Assembly (NCBI RefSeq): GCF_000296775.1
Contig: NZ_AJLE01000008.1
Location: 1-38,009, forward strand
Length of the DNA stretch: 38,009 nucleotides
DNA from: Sulfurovum sp. AR
GTDB taxonomy: Bacteria; Campylobacterota; Campylobacteria; Campylobacterales; Sulfurovaceae
Direction: 5' to 3'
Positions 9,387 to 38,009 of this stretch are shown here, one piece after another. A model generated the notes under the pieces. That model ran no database searches, was not told the origin of the DNA, and saw nothing but the letters and a program-made list of their open reading frames with translations. A program made the translations under genes and the position numbers. How positions within the stretch are numbered: position 1 is the first letter of the stretch; every line of letters starts with the position of its first letter.

Positions 9387-10913
9387 TTATAAGTGAGATA
9401 CTACCCTATTTTTACCCTCTTTTTTTGCTTTATACAGATATCTGTCGGCTCTGGCAATCATACTATCAAGGTTCTCCTCATCGATATGTGTTGCTACCCC
9501 AAAACTGCAGGTAACCTCTCTAGCTATTTGATAGTCACCCATGGAAATCACTTCACGTAGTTTTTCAGCGACCAATACCGCCTCCTCTTCATCTGTTTCT
9601 GGCAACATTACAAGGAACTCTTCCCCTCCCCATCGTCCTAAACGGTCACTCTTTCTTAGTTTCTGTATCATGAGATCAACAACTTTTTTCAAAACAAAGT
9701 CACCCTTTTCATGTCCATACTTATCATTGACTGATTTAAAATCATCTATATCAATGTAAAGAATAGAGAGTGGCTTATGTTTACGTTCCATACGTTCCAG
9801 TTCATATTCCAATAGTTCATTCATTGTATTTCTATTGTAAGCTCCAGTAAGACTGTCATACGTAGCAATCTCATTGATCTTTGAAATTTTTTGTAGTACT
9901 ACAAAAATAAGCATGGATAAAATCAATAGAATGATGGTAGATATCACCAATAGGGTCAAGGCATCTTTAGCAATGGTGCTTATCTCTTCAGAATTTTCAT
10001 AACTTATGAGATACGCTGCATTTCTATCCCCCTCAACATTGCTGATGGGGATAAAGGTGACAATCGTTTGATCTTTACAAATAGAAAACCCTTTCTGGCT
10101 TTGCATTTTTTGTGTCACTTCTTTCGAAATAGATTGGTTGATCTTCTGATATTTCGAAACGATAGGAATATATGCATCTCCACTTTCATTCATGTACTGA
10201 TCGTTGATCTGGCTTGTTATATAGTTGCTTTGTTCCTCTTTCCATACTTTTTTTTTCACAATTGACTTTTTAAGGATAAAGTCTATTTCATCACCAAGAG
10301 TCTCTTCTATATCATTACTTAATGCTTTGAAGGAGAGGGAGGTTTCAACACTACCTATATATCTCTTTTCTTCATCAAAGAGCGGGTAGACATAACGAAA
10401 ACCGTTATATATTCTTCCTTCCTCAAATCCTTCTACATATCTCTTCTCTTTATTCACTATTTCAAGAGAGTGCCTTATCCCTAACAATGAGTCCCCATAT
10501 TTCTCGGGTTTATGAAAACGTAAAAAACTACTCACATTGGGCAGGTGAAAATGTAACTGTCTGATATTGATCGATTTAAGGCTTTCATATGTTGGGATCA
10601 ATAATTTATATAAAGTAAGACGTATCATTTGCTGCTCTTCAGGTCTGGCATCTTTAGCCTGTTTGAACAGGTCAATGACCTCAGGGGTATTAATAATTTC
10701 ATCATGAAGTAGTTTTGTGATCTTCGAGTAAGATTTACGTGTACTATTGTAGACATCGTTAAAAACTTTTACTTTCCGTTCAAAAACTGCAGCCCGTTTA
10801 TCTTCATACATTTTCCATATAATCAAGGAAGCAAATAGTTCTAAAAAAATAAAAATAAAAGAGGAAAGAAGTATGATTTTTACCAAAGAGGTATTTAGAG
10901 TTATTTTTCGCAT
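9387..10913 (-). CDS. Membrane-bound diguanylate cyclase with periplasmic sensor domain
   Basis: 508 residues. Transmembrane helices at about 10-33 and 319-341 flank a periplasmic region (35-315) with features of a double-Cache sensor (HFHLPNVSSFLRFHKPEKYG; GFRYVYPLFDEEKRYIGSVE). The cytoplasmic part is a GGDEF domain starting at YDSLTGAYNR. The active motif GGEEF is at 429-433, and the inhibitory RxxD site (RKSD, 420-423) lies five residues before it, so it should make cyclic di-GMP and be feedback-inhibited. It sits between infA and rpmJ, inside the ribosomal supercluster, on the same strand. TATAAT lies only 7 bp before the ATG and no ribosome-binding site is visible, so the mRNA may be leaderless. 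Confidence 0.92.
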   Translation of the reverse strand: MRKITLNTSLVKIILLSSFIFIFLELFASLIIWKMYEDKRAAVFERKVKVFNDVYNSTRKSYSKITKLLHDEIINTPEVIDLFKQAKDARPEEQQMIRLTLYKLLIPTYESLKSINIRQLHFHLPNVSSFLRFHKPEKYGDSLLGIRHSLEIVNKEKRYVEGFEEGRIYNGFRYVYPLFDEEKRYIGSVETSLSFKALSNDIEETLGDEIDFILKKSIVKKKVWKEEQSNYITSQINDQYMNESGDAYIPIVSKYQKINQSISKEVTQKMQSQKGFSICKDQTIVTFIPISNVEGDRNAAYLISYENSEEISTIAKDALTLLVISTIILLILSMLIFVVLQKISKINEIATYDSLTGAYNRNTMNELLEYELERMERKHKPLSILYIDIDDFKSVNDKYGHEKGDFVLKKVVDLMIQKLRKSDRLGRWGGEEFLVMLPETDEEEAVLVAEKLREVISMGDYQIAREVTCSFGVATHIDEENLDSMIARADRYLYKAKKEGKNRVVSHL

Positions 10914-26359: not shown

Positions 26360-27031
26360 ATGAGTCTTTTACCGCAATATACACATATCATTAACCCTAA
26401 ACTGAAACATATTTATCTTAGCTTTGATAACGAGGGGAACCTCGTGATCAAATCGCCTAAAGTCACACAACAAAAAATAGAACAGCTCCTGCTCAAAAAA
26501 TCCTCCTGGATCAACAATGCCAGAGAGAAGATACAGCAGAAGAAAGGGAAACCCTTAGACTTTTCCAGTGACTTAGAGATTTATTTCATGGGGGAAGTCT
26601 ATCCTCTGACACTGGTACGATACAACAAGAAAAGAGCACATCTTGATTTTGATGGCGAAGCATTCAGACTTTTCTACCATACCTATGATGAAAAACTTTT
26701 CCAAAAACACCTCGATAGATTTTACAAAACAGAGGCACAGAAACATATTATTCCTCATGTAGAATTCTGGGCGAAAAAAATGTGCCTTTCCCCCGCAGAT
26801 ATACGATTTCGAAAAACCAAACGGCAATGGGGAAGCTGCAGCGGGAAAAACATCTTAAGTTTTAACACGATGATGATGAAACTTCCACATGATGTGATAC
26901 AATACATCATCGTGCATGAACTGGCACATATCAAGCACAAACATCATCAAAAAGCTTTTTGGCAACTGGTAGAACACTATGTGCCTGACTATAGAGCACA
27001 GGTCACTGAACTCAAAAACTATATGACATAA
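26360..27031 (+). CDS. YgjP-like (DUF45/WLM-type) zinc metallopeptidase
   Basis: 223 residues. The metal-binding motif HELAH is at 186-190 (IVHELAHIKHKHHQKAFWQL), with further His at 193-196 as third-ligand candidates. RQWGSCSGKNILSFNTMMMK before it is the signature of the YgjP family. There is no signal peptide, so it is cytoplasmic. No strong ribosome-binding site precedes the ATG, which comes 9 bp after the lipoprotein stop, so translation is probably coupled. The cellular substrate of the family is not established. Confidence 0.9.
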   Translation: MSLLPQYTHIINPKLKHIYLSFDNEGNLVIKSPKVTQQKIEQLLLKKSSWINNAREKIQQKKGKPLDFSSDLEIYFMGEVYPLTLVRYNKKRAHLDFDGEAFRLFYHTYDEKLFQKHLDRFYKTEAQKHIIPHVEFWAKKMCLSPADIRFRKTKRQWGSCSGKNILSFNTMMMKLPHDVIQYIIVHELAHIKHKHHQKAFWQLVEHYVPDYRAQVTELKNYMT

Positions 27032-27038
27032 GGAGTCT

Positions 27039-27316
27039 ATTATCGATTTATTTTATCTTCTTGCTTTTATGCTGATCATCCTTTTGGGGTCCGTATTTGT
27101 TTATATCTTTTATCTTAAAGAAAAAAAGAACAGCTGGATGCCATCAAACGTGGTTTTTGTCCAAAATGTCATCATAAAAGCATTGAACTTACCGACCAAA
27201 GATCAGGTGGATGTTCTGGGCCAAAACTACTCTCATTTGAATGTTTGGAGTGTGGATATACCAACAGCTTTGCCGTAGAGAACAGTGATAGTTGCGGCAC
27301 GGGAGGGTGTCATTGA
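27039..27316 (+). CDS. Small zinc-ribbon membrane protein, split by a -1 frameshift at an A7 run
   Basis: The coding sequence lies in two frames. The first (MLIILLGSVFVYIFYLKEKK from ATG 27069) is a membrane helix and ends out of frame at 27278. The second, from 27128 to TGA at 27314-27316, encodes EQLDAIKRGFCPKCHHKSIE and then a second CLEC pair and a Cys-rich tail SCGTGGCH, clearly a zinc ribbon. The frames meet at A AAA AAG (27122-27128), the dnaX-type slippery heptamer in the right phase for a -1 shift. An AAGGAG site at 27030-27035 is placed for ATT or ATC (27039/27042), not an ATG. Programmed frameshift, recent mutation and sequencing error are all possible. No stimulatory stem is obvious. 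Confidence 0.6.
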
Positions 27317-27398: not shown

Positions 27399-27863
27399 AT
27401 GAATTTTAGTAGCTCCTCTTTAGATTTCTCTATACTCCCTTACCAAGAGGGTGTGAATCCACCGGTCACCAAACCTAATCCAGGATTTTTAACAGACATA
27501 GGAGAAGAAGGTATGCGTGCCTTGCTCGATAGATTTTATATGGGTCTATTTGAAAGCCCGATCAAAGATATCTTCCCAAACGACAGAGAAGAGATGAAAA
27601 AAGCCGCACAGCACTCGGCAGACTTTTTCATACAGATCTGTGGAGGACCCGCTTACTTTAATCAAAACCGTGGCGCACCACAAATGAGAGGGAGACATGC
27701 GCCTTTCCCTATCACCCCTACAGCAAGACTGCATTGGCTTGTTACTTTTGAAGAGGCACTGAGACCCATCATAGAGCAAAAACTAAGTTCTGAAGAGAAT
27801 ATACAAAGCTTCTGGAATTACATCAACGTTTTTTCACAATGGATGATTAATACGCGAGACTAA
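27399..27863 (+). CDS. Group II truncated haemoglobin
   Basis: 154 residues. The globin core begins near residue 30. Tyr47 (RFY) matches B10, the proximal haem-ligand His100 sits in RGRHAPFPI, and Trp113 (HWL) matches G8, a combination typical of group II truncated haemoglobins. The N-terminal 25 residues extend beyond the common core. Such proteins bind O2 or NO and are linked to nitrosative or oxidative stress. AAGG lies before the ATG. It overlaps the end of the convergent Msr gene by four bases. No NO-sensing regulator is nearby. Confidence 0.9.
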   Translation: MNFSSSSLDFSILPYQEGVNPPVTKPNPGFLTDIGEEGMRALLDRFYMGLFESPIKDIFPNDREEMKKAAQHSADFFIQICGGPAYFNQNRGAPQMRGRHAPFPITPTARLHWLVTFEEALRPIIEQKLSSEENIQSFWNYINVFSQWMINTRD

Positions 27864-29329: not shown

Positions 29330-30646
29330 TTATCTTACACTCATCCCCTCATCCAAATACTTAATTAAAGGATACAAGAAAAAATTAATCACACGGCGCT
29401 TTCCTACTTTCATCTCTGCTGTTACACTCATCCCTGAATGCAGATATTCTTTTTCGCCATTTACTGTCAAGAAGCTCTCTTCAGGTTCGATATAGATCTC
29501 ATACACGGGCCCTAGCTTTTCATCCTCAATGGCATCATCGGCTTTATGACTTACAGTACCGTGAATCATCCCATATTTTTGAAAATCGAATGTATCGATC
29601 TTAACAGCTGTCTCCATACCTTCTTTAATAAACCCACTGTCTTGATTAAGTGCGGTAGCTTGAATAACCAGAGGTGCATCTTTAGGGATAACTGTTATAA
29701 GTTTTTCTGCAGGTGTTACAACGCCACCAACCGTATTAACAAGAAGCTTTCCGACATAGCCATCTACTGGTGCCGTGATATGCTGCTTAGCCTGCTTAAA
29801 CTTAATAGACTCAATCTCTACTTTTAACATATTTGCTTCTTGACGTTTTTTCGTTAGTTCTTCAAGAAGTTTATTTTGGTATTCCTGGGTAATAAGAAGT
29901 TTTTGTTCATTGAGTTCTGTCAGTTTTGCACGTAATTTTGTGATCTCATGCTCTTTCATAAGCCCCTGTTCTTGATACTCTATGACTTCTTTACGTGCAG
30001 CTTCAAACTCTTGTTTCGCAATGATATCAATAACTTCAAGCAAACGTGCTTCACGTTCTTTGGCTGCTGCAGAAAGCTGCATTATCCTACTGGCATCAGC
30101 ATTGGACACATCAATCTGAGAGTCGACCTGATGTATCTGTTCTGTAATAAGCTGTATCTGCTGATGATAGCCTACACGCTTCGTATCATAGATAAGTCTT
30201 TGTGTTGATAAAAGATCTTTATCCTTGAACTCATTAGATGGTATGAATTCTTTATCTTGTATCAGTGCCGTTAGACGTACCATTTCGATCTCAAGCTGTT
30301 CAAGGTGCTTGAGCTTGGAATCAAGATTTGTCTCAGTCACAGAAGGATCTATATCCATTAGAACTTGGCCCTTGGTCACGTATTCTCCCACTTTGACACG
30401 AATATTGCTAATAACGCCCGTCTCTATTGGCTGAAGCATCTTCACTTCACCAAGGGGAATGACCTTGCCTCTCGCAGTGACAACAACATCTATTTTCGCT
30501 AAAAAAAGCCAAAGTGTTGTAATCGTCATAAAAGCCAATATCGTCCAAAGTAACCCTCGACCAAGTGGACTAGTAGGTCTTTCTTCAATCTCAACAAGCA
30601 GAGGTCTAAACTCATGTCTGTCTTTAGTGCTAAACATATCCATCAT
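29330..30646 (-). CDS. HlyD-like periplasmic adaptor of a type I secretion system
   Basis: 438 residues. A short cytoplasmic N-terminus is followed by one membrane helix (about 30-50). The first lipoyl-like half is at 74-100 (IETGVISNIRVKVGEYVTKG), a long helical coiled coil follows at about 105-285, and the second lipoyl half is in APVDGYVGKLLVNTVGGVVT. This is the adaptor that joins the inner-membrane ABC exporter to the outer-membrane TolC-like channel. It begins directly after the ABC gene (no gap), with AGGA before the ATG. It is the last gene of the operon. Confidence 0.95.
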   Translation of the reverse strand: MMDMFSTKDRHEFRPLLVEIEERPTSPLGRGLLWTILAFMTITTLWLFLAKIDVVVTARGKVIPLGEVKMLQPIETGVISNIRVKVGEYVTKGQVLMDIDPSVTETNLDSKLKHLEQLEIEMVRLTALIQDKEFIPSNEFKDKDLLSTQRLIYDTKRVGYHQQIQLITEQIHQVDSQIDVSNADASRIMQLSAAAKEREARLLEVIDIIAKQEFEAARKEVIEYQEQGLMKEHEITKLRAKLTELNEQKLLITQEYQNKLLEELTKKRQEANMLKVEIESIKFKQAKQHITAPVDGYVGKLLVNTVGGVVTPAEKLITVIPKDAPLVIQATALNQDSGFIKEGMETAVKIDTFDFQKYGMIHGTVSHKADDAIEDEKLGPVYEIYIEPEESFLTVNGEKEYLHSGMSVTAEMKVGKRRVINFFLYPLIKYLDEGMSVR

Positions 30647-32746
30647 CTAATCCTGTTGTGTATAGAGCATATGGTAATACCCCTTTAGTTTCATCAATTC
30701 ATCATGCGAACCCTGTTCGACGATTTGACCTTTGTCCATAACCAGGATCACATCACAATCCTTAACGGTTGAAAGACGGTGTGCCACCATGAACATAGTA
30801 CGTCCTTTTTTGATCGTAGAAAGATTATTTTGGATGATCTTTTCCGACTCATAATCCAAAGCTGATGTCGCTTCATCAAATATTAATATCCGTGGGTTCG
30901 TAAGAAGAGCTCTCGCTATGGCTATACGCTGTCTTTGTCCACCTGAAAGGGCTGAACCACGTTCTCCAACTTGCGTGTCATAACCCTCTGGAAGTTCAGC
31001 AATAAACTCGTCAGCACCTGCCATTCTAGATGCTGCTATGATATGCTCCATTGGAGAGTCCGGTCGTGATAGTGAAATATTATCTTTTATGCTTCCGCTG
31101 AAAAGGTAGTTGTCTTGCAAAACAACACCGATGTTATTTCGTAACCATTTTGGGTCCATATGGCGAATATCAACACCATCTATATAAATTGCTCCACCGG
31201 TAGGAAGATAGAGTCTTTGTATAAGTTTGGCAATGGTGCTTTTACCGCTTCCACTTCGTCCGACCAATCCTACACTATAACCTTCAGGGAAGTCTGCCGA
31301 GATTCCCTTAAGCACCTGAGGGCTATCCGGAGCGTAAGAGAAGGTGACTTTTTCGAACTTGACAACACCGTTTACCTTAGGAAGCGTGATAGCTTTATCA
31401 TTTGTCTGTTCGGTTGGTGTATTCAGAATATCACCTAAACGATCCACCGAAAGAAGGGTCTGCTGAAACTCATTCCAAAGATTGACAAGACGCAGAACCG
31501 GTCCAGAAAACTGGTTGGCAAACATTTGAAAAGCAATCAGTTGTCCTACGCTCAACTTACCCTCAAGTACAAGGGTCACACCCACATAAAGCATAGAGAT
31601 TGTCATCAGTTTTTGTAGGGCTCCAGATACTCCACCTAAAATATTAGAGAGGTTTGTCAGATGAAAGCCTGCATTCACATAGCGGGCGAGATAATCTTCC
31701 CACTTTCTCTGCATGGAACCTTCAAGGGCTAAGGACTTAACAGTCTGTACTCCCGTGACAGACTCAACCAGATAAGAATTTGACTGAGCACCCATCTGAA
31801 ACTTTTCTTCAAGACGGCGACGTAATTCAGGTGTGATAAAAAGATAAAGTAAGGCAATGACAAATACAAATGCCAAGACGACCATTGTCAGCTTCACACT
31901 ATAAAGCAACATGACTGCGACGAATACACCGGAGAAAAGGACATCAATAATCAATGTTACCGACTTGTTAGCGATAAATTCACGTATCTGATCAAGTTCT
32001 CGAACACGAGCAATAATATTTCCGACTTTACGTTTTTCGAAGTAAACCAAAGGCAGTGCTAGCAAGTGATGAAACAATTTAGCTCCGAGTTTGGCATCGA
32101 TCTTGGACGTCGTGTGGGCAAATAAATAGTTTCGTATTAGATTCAGAACCAGTTCAAATATCGCTACAACAACAAAGGCAATAGCCAAGACATCCAAGGT
32201 CGTCATTGAACGATGGACTAAAACCTTATCGAGAATTACCTGAGTAAAAAGTGGCGTAACCAATCCAAAGAGCTGAATCACAAATGAAGCGATAAGTACT
32301 TCACCCATCACCTTTTTATACTTCATGATCTGATTAAAAAACCAACCAAATCCAAAACGGATCTGTTCGGAAAGTACCTTATGTTTAAGTACAATGACTT
32401 TACCACTGGCAATCTCTTCATACATCTCATAACTCATTGTATATGGTTCTTTGGAAGTCGTATCATAAATAAGGAGCTCTTTTGCTTCTGTATTGACTTG
32501 AATCACACTCATATAAGTACCATCTTTTTTTAATACTAAAAGAGGTAGAGGGTATGAATCAACCAATTTTTCGATATCTGTCTTTTTAATAGCTGCTCGG
32601 AAGCCTTGATATTTCGCAATACGGCATAACTCTTCAATACTTGGTTCAGCATCAGTAAGTGCATACTCTTTAATGATACTTCTACTGTCTATAGGAACAC
32701 GGTTAAGTTTTCCTGCAACTTCTAGGGAGACTAGTGCTGACTGCAT
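30647..32746 (-). CDS. Type I secretion ABC exporter with inactive C39-like domain
   Basis: 699 residues. Residues 1-125 form a C39-peptidase-like domain without the catalytic Cys (only Cys41, which is out of place), so it should bind rather than cut its substrate, as in HlyB and LapB. Six membrane helices follow (about 150-410). The ATPase part has Walker A GRSGSGKST (496-504), the LSGGQ signature (600-604), Walker B ILIFDEATSAL (620-630) and the H-loop His656. It overlaps the TolC-like gene by 16 bp, so the two are coupled. The likely substrate is the RTX protein upstream. Confidence 0.95.
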   Translation of the reverse strand: MQSALVSLEVAGKLNRVPIDSRSIIKEYALTDAEPSIEELCRIAKYQGFRAAIKKTDIEKLVDSYPLPLLVLKKDGTYMSVIQVNTEAKELLIYDTTSKEPYTMSYEMYEEIASGKVIVLKHKVLSEQIRFGFGWFFNQIMKYKKVMGEVLIASFVIQLFGLVTPLFTQVILDKVLVHRSMTTLDVLAIAFVVVAIFELVLNLIRNYLFAHTTSKIDAKLGAKLFHHLLALPLVYFEKRKVGNIIARVRELDQIREFIANKSVTLIIDVLFSGVFVAVMLLYSVKLTMVVLAFVFVIALLYLFITPELRRRLEEKFQMGAQSNSYLVESVTGVQTVKSLALEGSMQRKWEDYLARYVNAGFHLTNLSNILGGVSGALQKLMTISMLYVGVTLVLEGKLSVGQLIAFQMFANQFSGPVLRLVNLWNEFQQTLLSVDRLGDILNTPTEQTNDKAITLPKVNGVVKFEKVTFSYAPDSPQVLKGISADFPEGYSVGLVGRSGSGKSTIAKLIQRLYLPTGGAIYIDGVDIRHMDPKWLRNNIGVVLQDNYLFSGSIKDNISLSRPDSPMEHIIAASRMAGADEFIAELPEGYDTQVGERGSALSGGQRQRIAIARALLTNPRILIFDEATSALDYESEKIIQNNLSTIKKGRTMFMVAHRLSTVKDCDVILVMDKGQIVEQGSHDELMKLKGYYHMLYTQQD

Positions 32747-34035
32747 TGATCAATCCCTCTGTATAAGATATCCAACGAGGCTTTTTCATAAGCCGCTTCA
32801 CTCTGTTCTATTCTCAAATTCAACTCTCTTTCCAATCCTTCAAGCTTGGCATTAAGCTCGCTTATTTTATCTATCTGGTGATTATTTCTAAGTCTATTGA
32901 CCATTCCTATCTTCTCTTGAGTCACATCAAGAAGATCCTGATCTTTCTCCTGTAAAGTCTTTAAATGCACGATCTTTTCATTTTTTGATCTTGCATCATA
33001 TTCATATTCTCGTTTGTGCAAATCACGTTCTTGCTTGATACGAAGTAGTTCATAATGCAATCTCTCAGACTCACTGTTATATCGAAAGCCTTCAAATATA
33101 TTCATCCTTATAGCAAATCCAATCTTCCAACTGTTCTTCCTGACATTTTGAAATGCATCATAGGCATCATTGGGGTCTGAACCATACATATAATAGTTCC
33201 CGTACAGTAGAAGTTTAGGAAGCTGAGAGCTGTGGTGCATAGAGATCTCTTCTTGCTTTTGAAGTATCTGTTGATCATACCTGTGTCCTTGTGTTGTCTC
33301 TTCAAAGTCATCAGCCAACATATCCGTCTCCTTGTATTTTATGGGTAAAAGCTTCGTTGTCTTCTCATTTATCTCCATATGGCTCAAACTGCTAAGTTTG
33401 ATAACATCTTCTTGATATTGCATAGATGAACGCTCTATGTCACGTTCAATATCTATCATAGTTATCGCTTCATCTCCCAAATCTACCTTAGAGTATTTAC
33501 CCGCCTTATACAAACGTTTTTTGGTCTCAAAAAGCTGTCGCCGTATATTGAGCATCTCTCTCTTGATCTCATTTTGCGTCTTCATCTTCAGCGCGCTGTT
33601 ATAACGCTCAAGAATCTCTTGATGAAGCTTCTTTTCTTCTTCACACCACAGAAGGTGTTGGACATCCACTTTGCTCTTGGCGATATTGATACTCTTTTGC
33701 GTTGTACCGAAATGATAAAGCTCATAATTAAGGTTTAGTGAGAGCGAGCTTTGATATCGAGTCCCACTTGTAATAATGGTATCTCCAACCGATTCTGTGC
33801 CCGTTGGGTAATCACCAAGATCACGGTTATGCTCTGTATTATATGAGAGAGAAAGACTTGGATAATACTGTGCATAGATTGTCTCCAAACTGGATTTTTC
33901 TATATTCTCATCACTTTTAACGATCTTGAGACGATTTGATTGTGAGGTCGCTGATTGTAAAAGCTCTTGATATGTAACAGGTGTCGCAGACAAAGTAAGG
34001 CTTGCTAACATTAAAAATGGTATACGGTGGGTCAA
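32731..34035 (-). CDS. TolC-like outer membrane channel of the type I secretion system
   Basis: 434 residues. The start is TTG at 34035 with AAGGA six bases before it, and the N-terminus (MTHRIPFLMLASLTLSATPV) is a signal peptide. The repeat halves, with YYPSLSLSYN, SLNLNYELYHFG and the later LPKLLLYGNYYMYG and IGFAIRMNIFEGF strand pairs between long helices, are typical of TolC-family channels. It starts just 14 bp past the hairpin terminator that follows the RTX gene, so it has little room for its own promoter. It overlaps the ABC gene by 16 bp. Confidence 0.92.
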   Translation of the reverse strand: MTHRIPFLMLASLTLSATPVTYQELLQSATSQSNRLKIVKSDENIEKSSLETIYAQYYPSLSLSYNTEHNRDLGDYPTGTESVGDTIITSGTRYQSSLSLNLNYELYHFGTTQKSINIAKSKVDVQHLLWCEEEKKLHQEILERYNSALKMKTQNEIKREMLNIRRQLFETKKRLYKAGKYSKVDLGDEAITMIDIERDIERSSMQYQEDVIKLSSLSHMEINEKTTKLLPIKYKETDMLADDFEETTQGHRYDQQILQKQEEISMHHSSQLPKLLLYGNYYMYGSDPNDAYDAFQNVRKNSWKIGFAIRMNIFEGFRYNSESERLHYELLRIKQERDLHKREYEYDARSKNEKIVHLKTLQEKDQDLLDVTQEKIGMVNRLRNNHQIDKISELNAKLEGLERELNLRIEQSEAAYEKASLDILYRGIDQCSQH

Positions 34036-34048
34036 TTATTTTCCTTGA

Positions 34049-34080
34049 AAAATCACAGTTTTAATAAGAACTGTGATTTT
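34049..34080 (-). terminator. Strong hairpin between the RTX gene and the secretion genes
   Basis: A perfect 12-bp stem (AAAATCACAGTT with AACTGTGATTTT) encloses an 8-base loop and ends in five T on the minus strand. It begins about 32 bp past the RTX stop and ends 14 bp before the TolC-like start. It should terminate most transcripts and act as an attenuator for the exporter genes. Confidence 0.8.
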
Positions 34081-34111
34081 ATCTTATCTTTCTTGTGTCA
34101 CGGTTACGTAA

Positions 34112-37100
34112 CTATGATTTCCATGCCGAGGTAAAGATATTCATCATATCTGCAGTGGCTTGTATCAATGGATTATCTAATGAGAATATCCCGTTATCTG
34201 ATGCATAGGCATTGAGCTGTTGGATGATAAGATCAACATCATCATTGGTCAGATAGCTTCCATCTGCAAGCTCAAATCTTTCGATCTTCTTGTCATCATT
34301 ATCCTGTTCATTGATCTTGATACTATCTGTTGCCCCGTACTGAATATGAAGGTCACCATAACTCATAAAAAAACTTATATCATTCATCGTAATACCTTCG
34401 CCGAACTTGACCGTATCAAATCCTGCGTCTTCGGTTCCCATGCCAAACAATCCGCCACTTTTATGATCATTGATTGTAGAATCTTCGTCACCTATTTCAA
34501 AGAAGTAGGTGTCATTTCCACCTTCTCCCTCAAGATAATCCGTACCTGTGCCACCAGATAAAAAGTCGTCACCTTCACCTGCTACAAGGTCATCATTACC
34601 TGCGTCACCCCAAAGGAAGTCATTTCCAAGGTCACCATATAGGTTATCATTTCCAAGTCCACCAATCAAGGCATCATCTCCGTCTTCTCCATGCAGATTA
34701 TCGTTTCCAGAGTCGCCGTAAAGCGTATCTGACCCAATACCTCCATAGAGGTTGTCATAGTCTTCTCCACCAAAGAGTGTATCATTTCCACCGAAACCTT
34801 TGAGGGTATCATCTTGAATACCTCCAAAAAGAACATCATCAAGATTGCTGCCGTTAAGATTACTTCCTGCTGACGTACTCAAAAGAAGGTTGGTCACATC
34901 ACTTGTTCCATCAGCCGATCCGGTAAAGAAAAAGCTTCCTTCACTTGCTGTTTTAATCACATCTTTATCAAGAGTGATATCACCTTGGGCTGTTGTGATC
35001 TTCTGCACACCTGAATCTATCGCAACAAAATAATCTGTCATACTAACCGTTCCCTGCCCTTGTACTGCAATATTTAAATTGTTCCCAACACGGGTAAAAG
35101 TAAGATCATTTTTATCAACAGTATTCATCACTAGAGTGTCCTGACCATTATCCGTAATGATGAGATCACCCCCTTCATAGATATACCCTTCTACAGTAAA
35201 GTTAAGTGTACTGGTAACCATACCCCCATTCCCATCTGCGACTAAAATAGTTGCCGAATCAGTACCGTTAAATGAACCATTTGCTTTATAATGCCAGTTT
35301 CCTTGATTATCTACTGTAACCAATCCATTTGCAGCTTGTGTAGCAACTGTATATGTCAGAATATCTCCATCGATGTCAGATGCTTCCACCTTACCATTCA
35401 TGTCGCGGATATTTGTTAGCGTAAAGGCTTCTTCTGCTGTTACTACTATTGGAGCATCATTGACTGCTGCAATATCGAAGCCTTGTGTACTTGTTGAGCT
35501 TAGACCGTATTCATTTGTCACTTTAACAAGTACAGAATCTATACCATTATAGTCTTGGCTAGGAGTATAGTTCCAGTTCCCGTCAGCATCAACTATAAAG
35601 TTTCCATTTGTTGCTGGTGTCATTACTTCATAAGTCAGTGCACCACCTACTGGATTGACTACATTGAATGCTCCGTTTGTAGGATTATCCTCGAGAAGTG
35701 TCACTGTTGTGTTTATTAAACTTGGAGCAGAGACTCTTGTATCGAAGTTCAACGTTTTGGTAATGCTTTCACCATTTCCATCATCAATAGTGATGATTGC
35801 AGAATCTGTACCCATATAAAGAGGATTGACATTGTACGTCCATGTCCCTGTTGCATCAACACTCAAGGTTCCATGAAGTGCTTGAGTCGATACGCTATAG
35901 GTCAACACATCTCCATCGGCATCACTTGCTCCAACATCGCCAGATTGCTCACGTACATCTTGAAGCACAACACTCGTCTCAGCTTCTATTATAGTCGGTG
36001 CTACGTTGGTGATCACCATCTCAAAGTTAAGTGTTGTTGTCGTAGATAAGCCATTGCCGTCATCTACAGTAATGATTGCAGAGTCTAGTCCCTTATATTT
36101 ATCATTGGCCGTATATGTCCAGATTCCATAACTGTTAATCGTAATACTTCCAAACTCAGGTGCGGTAGATACACTGTAATTCAAGGTATCTCCATCTTCA
36201 TCACGCGCCAAAACAATGCCTGTTTGCGTACTCACATCCGTCAATGTGTACGATGACTCACCAAACACGGTTGTTGGTGCATGATTGGAGTTTTTCTCAA
36301 TGAGCCCAGGAATATCATAGTGCTCACCATTATAGAACTGAAGTGATTCGATCTGAAAGCCATCCTGTGCCCAATTTGAAACGACAATGCTATCACGTCC
36401 TTCTTCCGGAAGATCGGCATCATAAGCAAAACTTAGCACCATATCATTACCGCTTACTGTAAGCGTTACATCCTTACGTGAAATACCTTCACCAAAGAAA
36501 ATCCCATCGATACCAGCAGAGTCGATAATAACGTCTCTTCCGTCACCTTTTTCATACAGATAGACATCATTTCCTGCTTCCCCGATCAGCATATCATCAC
36601 CCTTACCACCGTTAAGAGCATCATTACCCTCGCCAGCAGTCAGAGTATCATCTCCTGCAAGGCCTTTTAAGTAATCATCACCCTCATCTCCTGAAAGTGT
36701 CTCATTACCTTCCTCTCCGTAAAGTACGTCATTAAAACGTCCACCTGAAAGTTCTGTTCCTTCATCCAAGACTCTCAATGTCAGTTCATCATTCTCTCGT
36801 GCAGAGACAAGAGTCTCATAAATTGCATCTCTGTCTAGAACTGTTCCATCAGCAAGCTCGATAGTCTCGATAAGACCGGTTGAGTTGAACCAGTTTTTGA
36901 TACGGATCTGGTCATCAACAGACTTAATTGGAGTATCATCTTCCGCACTGACACGTATACCTACAAGTAGATCCTCTGTACCATGATCCCACTTAAGTAA
37001 AACCTGGTCTTGACCGATACCGGCACCAAGAAGAAGTTTATCTACTCCTATACCTGATATATCTTGATCATCGATGATATCCTTACCATCACCCAATTTA

Positions 37101-38009
37101 AATACATAGGTATCATTCCCATCTTCTCCAATAAGTATGTCATCTTCTTTGGTACTGATCAGAGTATCATTATTGGTAATCGTATTACTACTGTCATATT
37201 GGAACCAGACATCACGGACTACACCATCTGCACCTGTACCTGTATATTTGGTCTCATTAGTGATTAGGTTTCCATTTTCCGTCACTTCCACAAAAGTACT
37301 TCCTGCCTCACGATCTAAATGAATAGCTTGGACAACACTTTGCTGAAGAGTAATAAGTTCATCAGGTGTACTTTTACCGTCCTGGTTTACATCTTTCCAT
37401 AGTAACAAGTCTGAGAAATTATCATCTTTACTGTCAATGATACTATCCCCATTACTATCATACTGGGCTAAAGCTTCATATCCTTCAGCGGCGAATGTAC
37501 CATCTGCTAATTGAGTATGATTTCCGAAAAGTTCCGAACCGTCCGTAATTTTACCGTCACCATTCACATCTACCGCAAGTAGTGCATCACCCTTATCTAT
37601 CCATGCCGTATGTTCACGCTGACCATCACCATCATAATCAAAATATGCATTTGAGTCATTGAGAGATGTCGATGTGATGCTGTTATGGTTAAGGTCAAGA
37701 ACAATTGGTGGAGTTACCTCAGTGATTGCACCACCATCATTCCAAAAACTGTTCATGATATTCATCAGTTCTGCATTATCACGGATATCTTGAGGGCTTG
37801 TGATTGTAATACCGTTTTCCTGAGCATAGATTTCTAGATCAAGTAAAGCTCTATCGATGTCAATATTAGACATGTACGAGCCATCTACAAGTTCTATTCT
37901 TTCAATCAAATTGTTTGCATTAGAATATGAATTTATGGTAACTTGATCCCCATTGGCATAATCTACCACAAGATTATTTCCATTCTTAAAGAACACAAAA
38001 TCTGTAGTA
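34112..38009 (-). CDS. Giant RTX / cadherin-like protein secreted by the type I system (N-terminus outside the window)
   Basis: The frame runs open through the window edge; the first GTG at 37996 is an internal Val, so the gene continues beyond. Numbering from that GTG gives 1,294 residues. An RTX-related secretion-like module is at about 28-86, then four calcium-loop (DxDGDG-type) stretches at 120-213. An RTX nonapeptide block (GGxGxDxLx) is at 416-478. Four cadherin/VCBS-like domains follow (571-661, 666-753, 758-842, 848-935), then a second RTX block at 1048-1165 and the C-terminal secretion end (1236-1294, ending SAWKS). It is probably a calcium-dependent adhesin or other large surface protein. 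The missing N-terminus prevents a firm role. Confidence 0.93.
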   Translation of the reverse strand, partial: TTDFVFFKNGNNLVVDYANGDQVTINSYSNANNLIERIELVDGSYMSNIDIDRALLDLEIYAQENGITITSPQDIRDNAELMNIMNSFWNDGGAITEVTPPIVLDLNHNSITSTSLNDSNAYFDYDGDGQREHTAWIDKGDALLAVDVNGDGKITDGSELFGNHTQLADGTFAAEGYEALAQYDSNGDSIIDSKDDNFSDLLLWKDVNQDGKSTPDELITLQQSVVQAIHLDREAGSTFVEVTENGNLITNETKYTGTGADGVVRDVWFQYDSSNTITNNDTLISTKEDDILIGEDGNDTYVFKLGDGKDIIDDQDISGIGVDKLLLGAGIGQDQVLLKWDHGTEDLLVGIRVSAEDDTPIKSVDDQIRIKNWFNSTGLIETIELADGTVLDRDAIYETLVSARENDELTLRVLDEGTELSGGRFNDVLYGEEGNETLSGDEGDDYLKGLAGDDTLTAGEGNDALNGGKGDDMLIGEAGNDVYLYEKGDGRDVIIDSAGIDGIFFGEGISRKDVTLTVSGNDMVLSFAYDADLPEEGRDSIVVSNWAQDGFQIESLQFYNGEHYDIPGLIEKNSNHAPTTVFGESSYTLTDVSTQTGIVLARDEDGDTLNYSVSTAPEFGSITINSYGIWTYTANDKYKGLDSAIITVDDGNGLSTTTTLNFEMVITNVAPTIIEAETSVVLQDVREQSGDVGASDADGDVLTYSVSTQALHGTLSVDATGTWTYNVNPLYMGTDSAIITIDDGNGESITKTLNFDTRVSAPSLINTTVTLLEDNPTNGAFNVVNPVGGALTYEVMTPATNGNFIVDADGNWNYTPSQDYNGIDSVLVKVTNEYGLSSTSTQGFDIAAVNDAPIVVTAEEAFTLTNIRDMNGKVEASDIDGDILTYTVATQAANGLVTVDNQGNWHYKANGSFNGTDSATILVADGNGGMVTSTLNFTVEGYIYEGGDLIITDNGQDTLVMNTVDKNDLTFTRVGNNLNIAVQGQGTVSMTDYFVAIDSGVQKITTAQGDITLDKDVIKTASEGSFFFTGSADGTSDVTNLLLSTSAGSNLNGSNLDDVLFGGIQDDTLKGFGGNDTLFGGEDYDNLYGGIGSDTLYGDSGNDNLHGEDGDDALIGGLGNDNLYGDLGNDFLWGDAGNDDLVAGEGDDFLSGGTGTDYLEGEGGNDTYFFEIGDEDSTINDHKSGGLFGMGTEDAGFDTVKFGEGITMNDISFFMSYGDLHIQYGATDSIKINEQDNDDKKIERFELADGSYLTNDDVDLIIQQLNAYASDNGIFSLDNPLIQATADMMNIFTSAWKS
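34502..34855 (-). repeat. C-terminal RTX nonapeptide repeat block
   Basis: About twelve copies of GGxGxDxLx (for example GGNDTLFGG, GGLGNDNLYG, GEGDDFLSG) encoded in tandem, residues 1048-1165 of the RTX protein. They should form a calcium-filled beta-roll ahead of the secretion signal. Confidence 0.95.
35186..36286 (-). repeat. Four cadherin/VCBS-like domain repeats in the RTX protein
   Basis: Repeats of about 90 residues, with recurring DxDGDxLxYSVST, GxxxxxxxGxWxY and GxDSAxxxVxDGNG elements. Copies 1, 2 and 4 are close relatives; the third is more divergent. Confidence 0.85.
36563..36751 (-). repeat. N-terminal RTX nonapeptide repeat block
   Basis: About seven GGxGxDxLx copies (for example GDEGDDYLKG, GEGNDALNGG, GKGDDMLIGE), residues 416-478 as numbered from the window edge. 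Confidence 0.92.

Follow-up and report, generated by a model that had tools for sequence, protein, structure and literature searches.

The genome of Sulfurovum sp. AR, a sulfur-oxidising bacterium, contains a small gene, preceded by a gene for a YgjP-like metallopeptidase and followed by one for a bacterial globin, that reads as two overlapping frames: one for a membrane helix and one for a zinc ribbon, joined at a dnaX-type slippery heptamer. A strong Shine–Dalgarno (SD) sequence precedes the gene, and no standard start codon stands at the distance expected of it. A sequence-only reading of this DNA had offered three explanations (a programmed-frameshift protein with a rare start, a slippage switch or a decaying gene). 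Which of these applies, and at which codon does translation begin?

The gene and its surroundings

The window (the whole stretch of DNA analysed, 38,009 nucleotides) is one contig, C4, of genome G000, which measures 2.13 Mb (Table 1). A globin-like gene is also found downstream of the zinc-ribbon gene in the next species (G036) and in some other relatives. Farther along, window positions 29330-38008 hold a type I secretion set (HlyD-like, ABC transporter and TolC-like; named by eye), and beside it a very large, repeat-rich RTX/cadherin-like protein, also named by eye, runs off the window.

Table 1. Features of the zinc-ribbon locus, in window coordinates
Feature	Position	Strand	Basis or remark
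YgjP-like metallopeptidase gene (upstream)	26360-27031	+	Pfam PF01863, E 1.3e-47; ORF list
Stop codon TAA of ygjP	27029-27031	+	overlaps the SD of the next gene
SD AAGGAG (TAAGGAG with 27029)	27030-27035	+	6 nt before ATC; sequence
ATT, in-frame codon just before ATC	27039-27041	+	sequence
Non-canonical start codon ATC (AUC)	27042-27044	+	codon at the same site in homologues
Whole membrane zinc-ribbon gene, frame broken by a one-base deletion	27042-27316	+	one unbroken, matching frame in nearly all relatives
Internal ATG, likely gene-finder choice (27069-27278, 69 aa)	27069-27071	+	not conserved; without SD
A7 run, site of the frame break	27121-27127	+	A8 in the same-species genome; sequence comparison
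Stop codon TGA closing the zinc-ribbon frame	27314-27316	+	sequence
Bacterial (truncated) globin gene (downstream)	27399-27863	+	Pfam PF01152, E 1e-19

The encoded protein has a short N-terminus, one membrane helix, a linker rich in lysine and glutamate, and a zinc-ribbon-like domain with the pattern CPxC...C...CxxC...C. The CPxC and CxxC pairs are invariant in 113 homologues, and the two further cysteines are nearly so. No curated family matched above its cut-off (best Pfam match: E 0.0018, 18.5 bits versus a cut-off of 31.2), and the AlphaFold model is poor beyond the helix (mean pLDDT 59), too poor for a fold search. The CPxC...CxxC pairs are like those of zinc ribbons of the TFIIS and RPB9 type, to which there are weak sub-threshold matches; unlike these, the Sulfurovaceae protein has an N-terminal membrane helix and extra invariant cysteine. 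Our guess is that it may act as a membrane-tethered zinc ribbon sensing metal or redox state.

The frame break is private to one genome

The geometry of the join had been described correctly. The membrane-helix frame begins near 27042, and the zinc-ribbon frame, which lies one base back, ends at 27316; the two join at A AAA AAG (27122-27128), whose phase matches that of the upstream frame, and a shift of one base back past the slip site gives ...KEKKEQLDAIKRGFCPKC...GTGGCH. It is also true that the downstream frame has no start of its own: a TAA stands at 27116-27118, and no ATG, GTG or TTG occurs between it and the ribbon.

A tblastn-type search for the protein in 78 genomes of the genus found it in 65, nearly always in one frame, and the uninterrupted gene of these relatives encodes 85-91 amino acids. 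G076, a genome of the same species, encodes a protein with 100% identity; its linker DNA reads GAAAAAAAAG, with eight As (A8), versus GAAAAAAAG, with seven (A7), in the window. Linkers in other relatives (GAG AAA AAA GAG, GAG AAG AAA GAG and similar) are in frame. Where G000 and G076 overlap locally, over 3.5 kb, the sole gap is at 27128, and when the window is compared with G036 over about 24 kb, the A7 break is the only uncompensated coding frameshift. The comparison with G036 also has a compensated pair of one-base indels at 10236-10241, inside a GGDEF-type gene (9387-10913). The copy of the zinc-ribbon gene in another genome of the genus, G072 (L116, reverse strand), which starts with ATG, has a frame break of its own at the same lysine/glutamate linker, made by an inserted G.

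A frame that is continuous in the homologues and mutated in this strain alone is what the sequence-only reading had set against its own proposal, and it is what we found: with a same-species genome carrying A8 among the intact homologues, neither the programmed frameshift nor the slippage switch is supported. The idea of a decaying gene may fit this strain at most; other genomes carry an intact, strongly conserved gene. Judged from these alignments, the frame break is private to this genome, either a deletion in the strain or a homopolymer assembly error. The slippery heptamer at 27122-27128 exists only because of the one-base deletion, and −1 slippage on it would be at most an accidental partial rescue.

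Across 192 kb aligned between G000 and G076, homopolymers of six, seven and eight bases differ in 3 of 371, 1 of 101 and 3 of 35 cases, respectively. Given that 8-base runs differ in 3 of 35 cases and 7-base runs in 1 of 101, it is nothing unusual for such a run to slip; and because so few homopolymers differ over this length, the assembly is not error-riddled, and an 8-base run is simply of the changeable kind. A real mutation and an assembly error appear about equally likely as the origin of the A7. The second of these, an error of assembly or polishing in an organism whose gene is an intact A8 gene, has close to an even chance and is compatible with an AUC start: the same-species genome has A8 and an identical protein, and homopolymers are where such errors typically fall, but the genes of this genome are otherwise nearly free of homopolymer frameshifts over the 192 kb.

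It is quite improbable that A8/A7 is a phase-variation switch, turned on and off by replication slippage. Runs of eight are the least stable between the same-species genomes, and the break in G072 arose independently at the same linker, but the longest A run near the linker is six or less in most relatives (eight in only 17 of the 78 scored), and the inserted G of G072 leaves the number of As unchanged. Programmed −1 frameshifting, by which the full protein would be made from the overlapping frames at A AAA AAG, has next to no chance, for although the phase of the heptamer is right and the second frame has no start of its own, the relatives read through one continuous frame with A8 or a G-interrupted run, RNA downstream of the slip site has no better fold than its shuffles (z 0.23, as the earlier doubt about a stimulatory structure had anticipated), and no internal SD was noticed near the slip site. 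Folding found no RNA structure around either the start or the slip site.

A conserved and very probable AUC or AUA start

The 5' ends of 114 classified homologues from outside the window, nearly all from Sulfurovaceae, were aligned; the annotated relatives of the gene all belong to Sulfurovum, Sulfurovaceae or epsilonproteobacterial MAGs. At the site of 27042-27044 the codon is ATC in 45 homologues, ATA in eight, ATG in 52, TTG in five, GTG in three and ATT in none; a lone GTT (L124) has an ATG just before it, which is the start. About half of the family has AUC or AUA, and the remainder AUG, UUG or GUG. The window's genus (g1) mixes ATC and ATG, g2 and g6 have mostly ATC, g3 has ATA or ATC, and g7 and g5 have ATG; ATG appears to serve as the start outside Sulfurovaceae (L083-L087). 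ATC and ATA swap with ATG, TTG and GTG at exactly this site, as would be expected only of a start codon, which tolerates isoleucine, methionine, leucine and valine codons in just these forms. On the best gene tree, which is short and has many weak branches, so that the count is approximate and is lower on strongly supported branches alone, there are at least 15 switches between the AUC/AUA and AUG/UUG/GUG classes (24 counting all codons). The absence of ATT is specific to the start: none of 53 start sites of the ATC/ATA class has it, versus 60 of 220 isoleucine codons at six other conserved isoleucine columns of the same loci. The AUC/AUA start is carried by complete single-contig genomes (G001, G002, G004 and G036) and is therefore not an assembly artefact.

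The earlier remark that a standard start is missing at the SD-spaced position is borne out, and the rare start is conserved family-wide. The AAGGAG is indeed strong and not spaced for an ATG. The sequence-only reading had left the choice between ATT and ATC; ATC stands, as it lies at the SD optimum and is kept in homologues, but ATT is not conserved. The codon at the site of 27039-27041 varies freely (ATT, AGT, GTT, CTT, CCT, GCT, CCC, CAC and more) next to a retained ATC, and is therefore leader. We rejected ATT 27039-27041 as the start, since the codon is not conserved and the SD spacing is kept by ATC instead: in 51 of 53 loci, AAGGAG and the ATC or ATA stand 5-6 nt apart. Mean SD pairing is −7.3 kcal/mol for the ATC/ATA class versus −5.2 kcal/mol for loci with NUG starts, a difference with an uncorrected p of about 1e-6 that is non-significant after kinship correction (few independent pairs).

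The codon might still be read by a special initiator tRNA, or be reached solely by re-initiation after the upstream stop, but we consider this improbable. The fusion of the ygjP stop with the SD as TAAGGAG in Sulfurovum would suit re-initiation; however, the AUC/AUA start persists with other upstream genes, and also at L134 and L143, where the upstream gene lies on the other strand and runs away from it. As for the tRNA, three non-identical initiator-type tRNAs (C1-A72) occur in G000 (L295 on C9, L296 on C6 and L298 on C10), and one with a GGG/UCC anticodon stem could be thought special, but all three have anticodon CAU, as does every C1-A72 tRNA found, with no special initiator of another anticodon among them. 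The variant does not track AUC starts either: genomes with AUC, such as G002, contain just one match to it, at 91%. In this variant GGG/UCC replaces GGG/CCC, and several relatives have close copies of it.

It is highly unlikely that a canonical start is used, either the internal ATG at 27069 or one within the upstream gene, with ATC an ordinary isoleucine codon. Gene finders would pick such codons, and in some loci an open frame reaches back to an ATG about 42 codons up, or a remote in-frame ATG or TTG lies 17-96 codons upstream, within the preceding gene. But the site of the internal ATG is a leucine or other codon in many homologues and has no suitably placed SD, and a start there would remove part of the membrane helix. 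In most loci a stop 2-20 codons up closes the upstream frame, 43 of 54 ATC/ATA loci have no canonical start upstream in frame, and in ten ATC/ATA loci, spread over several genera, the whole stretch between the in-frame stop upstream and codon 25 lacks ATG, GTG and TTG. Sister clades, moreover, show ATG, TTG or GTG exactly at the ATC site. In two complete genomes (L018, L023) the frame is open for ~42 codons further into ygjP, and the ATG there may have misled annotation.

Taken together, these comparisons make it very probable that the gene starts at AUC or AUA and that the A7 break arose by a mutation private to this genome or by an error in assembly, and is not a site of programmed frameshifting.

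How the start might be read

For an AUC or AUA start, the initiator tRNA (anticodon CAU) would presumably pair with two bases of the codon and leave the third position mismatched. By analogy with infC and sigR, the strong SD at its fixed spacing may carry most of the recruitment, and initiation factor IF3 would keep the yield low. In vitro, IF3 selects for strong pairing at the third position and against mismatches (PMC10158994), and it represses infC (AUU) and Streptomyces sigR (GUC) (PMC5472188). A low, IF3-sensitive output from the AUC/AUA start is thus a plausible expectation from these precedents. The infC gene of the genus itself appears to begin at a TTG that follows AAGG close to the end of thrS, and not with AUU or AUC (L177-L206); with a UUG start there, it offers no local precedent for AUC.

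The second codon is GAT or GAC in 100 of 113 homologues. A probable reason for the avoidance of AUU is that the sequence AUUGAY holds a UUG, a canonical start, displaced by one base and in the wrong frame. It is possible, at somewhat less than even chances, that the AUC/AUA start is kept so that synthesis is gated by initiation fidelity (the level or state of IF3). The gene would then be a dedicated translational sensor, and the choice of its start codon (AUC or AUA, never AUU, alternating with AUG) would be under selection.

Comparison with known systems

The start does not reflect a general habit of the genome. The pattern AAGGAG-N5-7-ATH occurs 137 times in the whole genome versus 155 times in a reversed control, and we accordingly rejected genome-wide use of AUC, AUA or AUU starts. 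Inspection by eye of 369 kb of this genome found no convincing case of another open frame with SD and ATC that resembles a gene. A literature search of partial coverage returned nothing on this gene; the comparable cases that it found are infC and sigR.

The infC gene, which encodes IF3 and starts with ATT in E. coli and ATC in Streptomyces (PMC5472188), shares with the Sulfurovaceae gene a conserved non-canonical AUH start and a good SD. Unlike infC, the Sulfurovaceae gene does not encode a translation factor, and a direct feedback loop is not expected. Closer in this respect is Streptomyces sigR (GTC, IF3-repressed; PMC5472188), which is likewise not a translation factor and shares with our gene a genus-wide non-canonical start, a strong conserved ribosome-binding site and a start misannotated in genomes. 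The codons of sigR are GUC/GUU, as against AUC/AUA here; the AUC of our gene, in contrast, alternates with AUG, UUG and GUG among relatives. The window shares with the programmed −1 frameshift of dnaX the same heptamer in the same phase, but unlike that of dnaX, the window heptamer is not conserved, has no stimulators and was made by a deletion in one genome.

Two practical points follow from this locus. A striking 'slippery site' can be merely a private one-base indel, and gene finders limited to ATG, GTG and TTG would truncate or over-extend the gene. Very few bacterial genes with conserved starts outside AUG, GUG and UUG have been characterised experimentally (PMC5472188). On the alignments presented here, we conclude that the family-wide conserved AUC/AUA start makes the gene a further member of this small class, and that one gene of the Sulfurovaceae gives a natural allele series of AUC, AUA, AUG, UUG and GUG over many independent genomes.
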